Assembly: GCA_029865225.1 (NCBI GenBank)
Contig: JAOUHJ010000025.1
Location: 1-42,748 of the forward strand
Source of the DNA: Nitrospira sp.
GTDB lineage: Bacteria > Nitrospirota > Nitrospiria > Nitrospirales > Nitrospiraceae
Length of the DNA stretch: 42,748 nt
Reading direction: 5' to 3'
Part shown: positions 42,434-42,626 of the stretch, in pieces
How positions within the stretch are numbered: position 1 is the first letter of the stretch
Layout: the number at the start of each line of letters is the position of its first letter
Translations under genes and position numbers: made by a program
Notes under the pieces: generated by a model
Seen by the model: the letters and a program-made list of their open reading frames with translations, nothing else
Databases searched by the model: none
What the model was told of the DNA's origin: nothing

Positions 42434-42478
42434 ATCGAAAACGACCGCGATAATGGGTTCACTTCAGACCTCGGACAT

Positions 42479-42512
42479 AAAAAAACCTCCTCACTGAGCT
42501 GTAGTGAGAAGG
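42479..42512 (-). terminator. Intrinsic terminator (attenuator) in the pyr leader
   Basis: On the minus strand, CCTTCTCACT and AGTGAGGAGG pair completely (ten base pairs with one G-U) around a seven-base loop, followed by seven T. It sits 46 bases before pyrR. The 5' arm CTCACT is complementary to AGTGAG in the PyrR-binding loop upstream, so the two structures exclude each other. Confidence 0.85.
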
Positions 42513-42550
42513 TCGGGGTTAAAACCGGCCATGGCCGGACGGAGATTCAT
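42491..42550 (-). CDS. Putative 19-residue pyr leader peptide
   Basis: The frame reads MNLRPAMAGFNPDLLTTAQ and stops at TGA (42491-42493). An AGGAG Shine-Dalgarno at the right distance precedes it, and that sequence belongs to the PyrR-binding element. The stop lies within the 3' arm of the terminator hairpin. A second very short frame (MSEV, 42464-42478) with GGAGG from the hairpin follows. Ribosomes on these could affect terminator folding. No pyrimidine-rich codon bias is obvious. A real product is unproven. Confidence 0.5.
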   Translation of the reverse strand: MNLRPAMAGFNPDLLTTAQ

Positions 42551-42556
42551 GATTAG

Positions 42557-42582
42557 CTCCTTGCTCACCTCACTGGATGAGC
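42557..42582 (-). promoter_or_regulatory. PyrR-binding RNA element
   Basis: On the minus strand the sequence TCCAGTGAGG, then TGAGCAAGGAG, matches from memory the conserved loop of PyrR-binding sites (CCAGAGAGG...GCAAGG). The arms GCTCA and TGAGC form a five-base stem closing a ten-base loop. It lies about ten bases into the predicted transcript, upstream of a terminator, as in Bacillus-type pyr leaders. Confidence 0.75.
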
Positions 42583-42597
42583 ATTAAAGGTTGGTGA

Positions 42598-42626
42598 ATC
42601 TTACTGAACCGCCCCATTTATGTCAA
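42598..42626 (-). promoter_or_regulatory. Sigma70-type promoter of the pyr operon
   Basis: On the minus strand, TTGACA (42621-42626) is followed after 17 bases by TAAGAT (42598-42603). The transcript would start near 42591 and give a leader of about 157 bases before pyrR. The -35 is in the tip of the putative IS21-like element. Confidence 0.75.

Follow-up and report, generated by a model that had tools for sequence, protein, structure and literature searches.

Regulation by PyrR is usually described as an RNA-refolding switch of Gram-positive bacteria, and attenuation by translation of a leader peptide as a separate device of Gram-negative bacteria. The leader of the pyr operon in a Nitrospira sp. 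raises the question of whether, and how, the two can be combined. It lies in the window analyzed here, a stretch of 42,748 nucleotides, for which a preliminary description had listed a PyrR loop, a leader peptide and an attenuator. All three elements are present, and we consider it likely, from comparison with related leaders, that together they constitute a PyrR-controlled, ribosome-dependent transcription attenuator ahead of pyrR-pyrB-pyrC-carA, in which the operon is probably shut because PyrR denies a ribosome access to the message, and not through the refolding of RNA known from Bacillus.

All features of the leader are on the minus strand. A promoter of the sigma-70 type (42598-42626) matches 10 of 12 consensus positions, with TTGACA (42626-42621) and TAAGAT (42603-42598) separated by 17 nt; the pattern TTGACA-N17-TANNAT-N6-(A/G)CCTTTAA is kept across the Nitrospirales leaders, and the spacing from promoter to loop is nearly fixed. 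Because of this constancy we infer that the mRNA begins with the 5′ strand of the loop's lower stem; in the window, the position of the promoter predicts a transcription start at 42592/42591. The loop (42559-42590), assigned from sequence and fold, reads CCUU-UAAU-GCUCAUC-CAGUGA-GGUGAGC-AAGG from 42590 to 42559, and consists of a lower stem CCUU/AAGG, an internal bulge UAAU, an upper stem GCUCAUC/GGUGAGC and a hexaloop CAGUGA. The Shine-Dalgarno (SD) sequence AAGGAG of the leader ORF (42557-42562) overlaps it: the AAGG at 42562-42559 is the 3′ strand of the lower stem, so that the PyrR-binding sequence does supply the SD, as had been proposed. The leader ORF (42491-42550) begins with ATG at 42550, has 19 codons (MNLRPAMAGFNPDLLTTAQ), and ends with UGA at 42493-42491, in the 3′ arm of an intrinsic terminator. 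This terminator (42479-42514), evident from its fold and found also in the Nitrospirales relatives, has a 12-bp stem (42514-42484) with a 7-nt loop, followed by T7 (42485-42479), and stands between the PyrR loop and pyrR, as in Bacillus-type attenuators. A segment of its 5′ arm, CCUUCUCAC (42504-42512), could pair instead with GUGAGCAAGG of the loop and SD, forming a candidate antiterminator. A small hairpin within the leader ORF, CCGGCCAUGGCCGG (42525-42538), was recognized from its fold and from relatives: it is GC-rich, frequent in the genus and missing in some members, related families have other small hairpins there, and it possibly acts as a polymerase pause hairpin.

The identity of the loop needs some comment. 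The covariance model RF00515 of Rfam aligns to the entire element and scores 49.9 bits, which does not reach the curated gathering cut-off of 54; a scan at the gathering score accordingly gave no match in the window, and RF00515 appears only in the search by E-value (8.9e-6 for the searched stretch, 1.2e-5 for the whole genome). The site is the only one in the entire genome, at the pyrR leader. The loop consensus ARUCCNGNGAGGYU is found in the correct stem, as CAUCCAGUGAGGUG. We call the element a PyrR loop on the basis of homology and context, not because it passes the Rfam cut-off, and its binding by PyrR is a prediction. A covariance model built from Nitrospirota loops alone (R1) matched in 196 of 295 Nitrospirota genomes, and it also detected loops upstream of pyrR in the pyr operons of Bacillota, second sites included (Anoxybacillus, E = 1e-9). 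On the Nitrospirota element (42594-42477) RF00515 falls short by a few bits and depicts the leader as three plain hairpins; annotation would be better served by separate loop-only and leader-peptide forms of the Rfam PyrR model.

The comparison of leaders was carried out with 65 Nitrospirota representatives that were less than 75% similar between loop and terminator, with 46 loops from Bacillota and similar sources as controls. A start codon follows the SD in 59 of these 65 non-redundant leaders. All 35 Nitrospirales have ATG or GTG at +4 to +14 after AAGG, and in 30 of them it is ATG, against a background of 9% for ATG in neighboring windows of the same size; among the other Nitrospirota the corresponding figures are 24/30 and 19/30, with a background of 4%, and 6/30 have neither codon in this interval. 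The Bacillota controls show no clear excess (ATG in 13/46 vs. 24% background). The spacing between AAGG and the start varies while the codon persists, which points to a start codon more than to a conserved string. In several families (loci L226, L240, L241) the AAGGAG is displaced downstream from the lower stem by a few bases, and a start codon still follows it. It should be noted that AAGG also belongs to the generic Bacillus loop consensus; only the start codon and the frame are specific to the Nitrospirota form.

In all 57 Nitrospirota leaders for which both a start and a terminator could be identified, no stop interrupts the frame until at most 12 nt remain to the terminator arm; the two shifted frames reach this point in 24 and 45 leaders. 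In Nitrospirales the +2 frame, too, is frequently open (32/35), which makes openness there weak evidence when taken alone; it becomes convincing because the signal is strong in the AT-richer Nitrospirota families outside Nitrospirales (22/22 vs. 5 and 13). Pooling of all non-Bacillota leaders gives 86/89 by the same 12-nt limit (vs. 31 and 68 in the shifted frames; p = 1e-4 by Fisher's test against the better of the two), and in 82/89 the frame extends into the arm itself (vs. 21 and 58; p = 1.6e-5); these p-values are approximate, as the representatives are related by descent and the tests ignore kinship. For Bacillota the numbers are 15/21 vs. 12 and 17. The preliminary description had made its reading depend on conservation of the peptide frame, and at the level of the frame this dependence holds, while the sequence of the peptide and the position of its stop vary. 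The 19-residue peptide with its stop in the hairpin is a correct account of the window and not a rule: the leader stop is beyond the U-tract in 40/57, and in the remainder it falls inside the hairpin or a short way ahead of it, including 4/35 Nitrospirales in which it is 1-10 nt ahead of the terminator arm. Indels have also changed the phase of the leader ORF relative to the terminator from family to family. A conserved functional leader peptide was ruled out, because sequence, phase with respect to the terminator and stop all vary among families; sensing of an amino acid by the leader was ruled out as well, because the leader peptides contain no run of a single codon. As read from these sequences, the conserved property is a putative path for the ribosome into the terminator, not the peptide. 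The window thus has a translatable leader ORF, with SD and start, that reaches the terminator, as in leaders of the pyrBI type.

We then considered pyrR loci sampled from the phyla of one Syntrophaceae genome (here called Desulfobacterota), one Methylomirabilota genome and one Omnitrophota genome; removal of redundancy left small samples of 10 Desulfobacterota and 6 Methylomirabilota. The order loop, SD, leader ORF, terminator is found in most loop-bearing loci of the three phyla. One clade of Methylomirabilota (L284, L288, L289, L292-L296, L298, L299, L302, L303) has no terminator, and the ATG that follows loop and SD is the start of pyrR itself; the same direct form occurs in one Omnitrophota genome (L326). 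Judging from this arrangement, these are apparent cases of translational repression by PyrR outside Actinobacteria. We regard the direct form as the most useful single observation of this study: since the start in question is that of pyrR, the loop in that clade sits on a genuine ribosome-binding site.

A second start is present in the window. Directly after T7 there is another ATG, with an SD-like GGAGG in the 3′ arm of the terminator, which opens an ORF of 4 codons, MSEV* (42464-42478). An NTG directly after the U-tract is found in most Nitrospirota leaders, where GGAGG or GGAAGG in the 3′ arm of the terminator may serve as its SD, and is common in Bacillota too. It is apparently pyrR's own start in L216, L222, L228 and L232; in L218 a very short ORF closes with TGATG where pyrR starts, and L225 is listed with the same NTG. 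The terminator may double as a hairpin that hides this SD.

These data have to be weighed against other explanations, of which the most obvious is an ordinary attenuator of the Bacillus type: the loop stabilized by PyrR would be an anti-antiterminator, its 3′ half would otherwise pair with the 5′ arm of the terminator, and the leader ORF would be incidental. The complementarity between AGTGAG and this arm had been pointed out before as a possible antiterminator, and the pairing is in fact longer, as GUGAG-c-AAGG pairs with CCUUCUCAC over 9 bp with one bulge. In the window, before the 3′ arm of the terminator is made, the loop form (−20.3 kcal/mol) and the antiterminator form (−20.2 kcal/mol) have equal computed energies; afterwards the terminator wins. 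Covariation was evaluated in each group from duplex energies, comparing how well the loop strand pairs with the arm of its own leader and with arms swapped in from other species, in 5000 permutations. Bacillota, the positive control, gave a clear signal (own −12.4 vs. swapped −9.6 kcal/mol, 0/5000); Nitrospirales gave a weak but significant one (−12.9 vs. −12.0 kcal/mol, 4-9/5000). There is no antiterminator covariation in the other Nitrospirota (−9.3 vs. −9.5 kcal/mol, 3520/5000), in Omnitrophota (−6.86 vs. −6.87 kcal/mol, 2490/5000) or in Desulfobacterota, in which own pairing is worse than swapped, although loop and terminator persist in all three. As the signal is lost outside Nitrospirales, the antiterminator is not what the phylum keeps, and since start codon and open frame are conserved in the non-Bacillota groups and not in Bacillota, a Bacillus-type attenuator appears improbable. 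In Nitrospirales both features occur together and the antiterminator may contribute, as in the full version of the preliminary proposal, where antiterminator and leader translation are redundant routes of antitermination that PyrR cuts off jointly. However, SD and antiterminator share AAGG and are mutually exclusive on one molecule, and a signal this weak could stem from relatedness; we find this joint scheme unlikely, if less so than the Bacillus-type one.

Two further readings were considered. Leader translation might mainly load ribosomes for the start that follows the terminator (GGAGG-T7-NTG) and thereby for pyrR; the main task of the hairpin would then be to hide that SD. The near constancy of the NTG in Nitrospirota, its apparent use as the pyrR start in four lineages, and the direct control of pyrR in Methylomirabilota speak for such a translational device; yet the second ORF of the window has only 4 codons and is not joined to pyrR, the NTG is common in Bacillota as well, and the stem with T7-9 is a full intrinsic terminator, all of which leaves it very improbable. 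Alternatively, the leader ORF could be the non-functional relic of an ancestral pyrR start repressed directly by PyrR, an idea that draws on the direct form in Methylomirabilota and in one Omnitrophota genome. A relic is difficult to reconcile with a frame that is open in every Nitrospirota representative with start and terminator despite the phase-shifting indels, and of all the explanations considered we give this one the least credence.

The ribosome-dependent attenuator that we prefer would then work as follows. The PyrR loop would form the beginning of the transcript. With ample UMP, PyrR-UMP would bind and close the loop, so that AAGG pairs with CCUU at the 5′ end of the mRNA; with the leader SD hidden no ribosome could enter, the terminator would fold, and transcription would stop. 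When UMP is low, PyrR would leave, the SD would be exposed, and a ribosome close behind RNA polymerase would translate the leader ORF as far as the 5′ arm of the terminator, preventing the hairpin and allowing transcription of the operon. The peptide itself would be irrelevant: all that should count is a frame open up to the terminator, with the pairing of loop and terminator as a possible addition in Nitrospirales. Of this scheme, the sequences show the anatomy, the homology of loop and PyrR, the conservation of SD, start and open frame, and the loss of antiterminator covariation; PyrR binding, the nucleotide response, leader translation and the causal role of the ribosome are inferred. The comparison of leaders, with an SD in the lower stem, a conserved start and a frame running into the terminator, favors the earlier suggestion that binding of PyrR both blocks leader translation and promotes termination.

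How does this scheme relate to known systems? In the pyrBI operon of E. coli termination is prevented when a ribosome translates a leader ORF that enters or passes the terminator, the signal being UTP-sensitive pausing of the polymerase. Blockage of the terminator by a leader ribosome would be common to both, but pyrBI has no PyrR loop, and here there is no sign of a pausing signal of that kind; the leader sequence of the window shows no long U-rich tract between leader start and terminator. A closer parallel may be the pyrR-pyrB-bbc-pyrC leader of Thermus strain ZO5, for which Van de Casteele et al. reportedly proposed in 1997 (J. Bacteriol.) a PyrR attenuation in which a translating ribosome replaces the antiterminator. 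That layout, a PyrR loop controlling a leader ORF that runs into a terminator, is present in the window, with an antiterminator signal absent outside Nitrospirales and weak within (4-9/5000). The Thermus case concerns another phylum and was reportedly a proposal for one operon, whereas 57 Nitrospirota leaders and 32 from other phyla are compared here, with a possible residual antiterminator; no pyrR was found in the Thermus plasmid records searched. If the Thermus proposal was of this kind, the mechanism itself is not new, and the window adds another example. The preliminary view of a hybrid between Bacillus PyrR control and E. coli attenuation largely stands in the layout of loop, SD, leader and terminator, and has to be amended with regard to the stop in the hairpin, to UTP sensing of the E. 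coli kind, of which there is no sign, and to the probable Thermus precedent.

The mechanism of the PyrR RNA switch at the pyr attenuators of Bacillus subtilis has been described (PMC7430163). Sequence and structure of the loop, the terminator, the presence of pyrR in the operon and the proposed direction of control are alike in B. subtilis and Nitrospira. The differences are that in Bacillota the antiterminator covaries and no leader start is conserved, while the form described here has a conserved leader ORF with a weak or absent antiterminator, and that B. subtilis has three sites in its operon and Nitrospira one in its genome. For Mycobacterium smegmatis, a title (Fields and Switzer 2007, cited in PMC13328217) indicates translational repression by PyrR. 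The likeness is a PyrR loop over a ribosome-binding site, there reportedly at the start of a pyr gene itself and with no terminator. In the window a terminator intervenes between loop and pyr gene; the loop lies over the SD of a pyr gene, with no terminator, in the Methylomirabilota clade, which is therefore the closer match. Compared with the three established kinds (Bacillus PyrR, E. coli pyrBI and mycobacterial PyrR) the leader of the window is a distinct form. Our literature search found no paper on a hybrid of PyrR and leader peptide, which is no proof of novelty since most subscription papers were outside its reach. What is added here is a statistical case across a phylum, the difference from Bacillota, and the Methylomirabilota loci with the direct form.

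These results can be viewed in the light of the coupling between transcription and translation. In Bacillota and some further phyla RNA polymerase runs ahead of the ribosomes (PMC13323073, PMC7858274); ribosomes close behind the polymerase block intrinsic terminators, and Nitrospirota are absent from the list of runaway phyla in which Bacillota are classed (PMC13323073). This absence fits a ribosome-dependent device, as a correlation over few phyla. By extension, the PyrR loop outside Bacillota might be a switch on a ribosome-binding site, acting directly on pyrR or via a leader ORF whose translating ribosome takes the place of the RNA antiterminator, with the form following whether transcription and translation are coupled in the lineage, and the Bacillus antiterminator might be an adaptation to runaway transcription; we offer this generalization tentatively, as one that is rather more doubtful than the mechanism itself. 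The two devices are joined throughout the phylum to which the nitrifier Nitrospira belongs and within at least three others, in parts of each, and the natural series of antiterminator, ribosome and direct pyrR forms lets one test whether coupling decides which antitermination device evolves.

Downstream of the leader, pyrR (41867-42433, minus strand, like the genes that follow) is identified by the NCBIfam PyrR equivalogs (NF003549, 243 bits with a cut-off of 138; NF003547, 238 bits with a cut-off of 230) and by PyrR structures in the PDB (E = 1.4e-67). Its longest version starts at ATG 42433, without an SD; GTG 42388 or ATG 42382, behind GGAAGG/GAGAAGG, are more likely starts. The regulated cluster continues with pyrB (40930-41853), pyrC (39615-40898), an ORF of 173 aa (39089-39610) and carA (37914-39092), and spacing and strand suggest that all five (37914-42433) are co-transcribed. 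The 173-aa product, encoded between pyrC and carA, is hydrophobic and has a weak NADH-dehydrogenase-like match (E = 6e-4); its ORF overlaps the start of carA by 4 bases.
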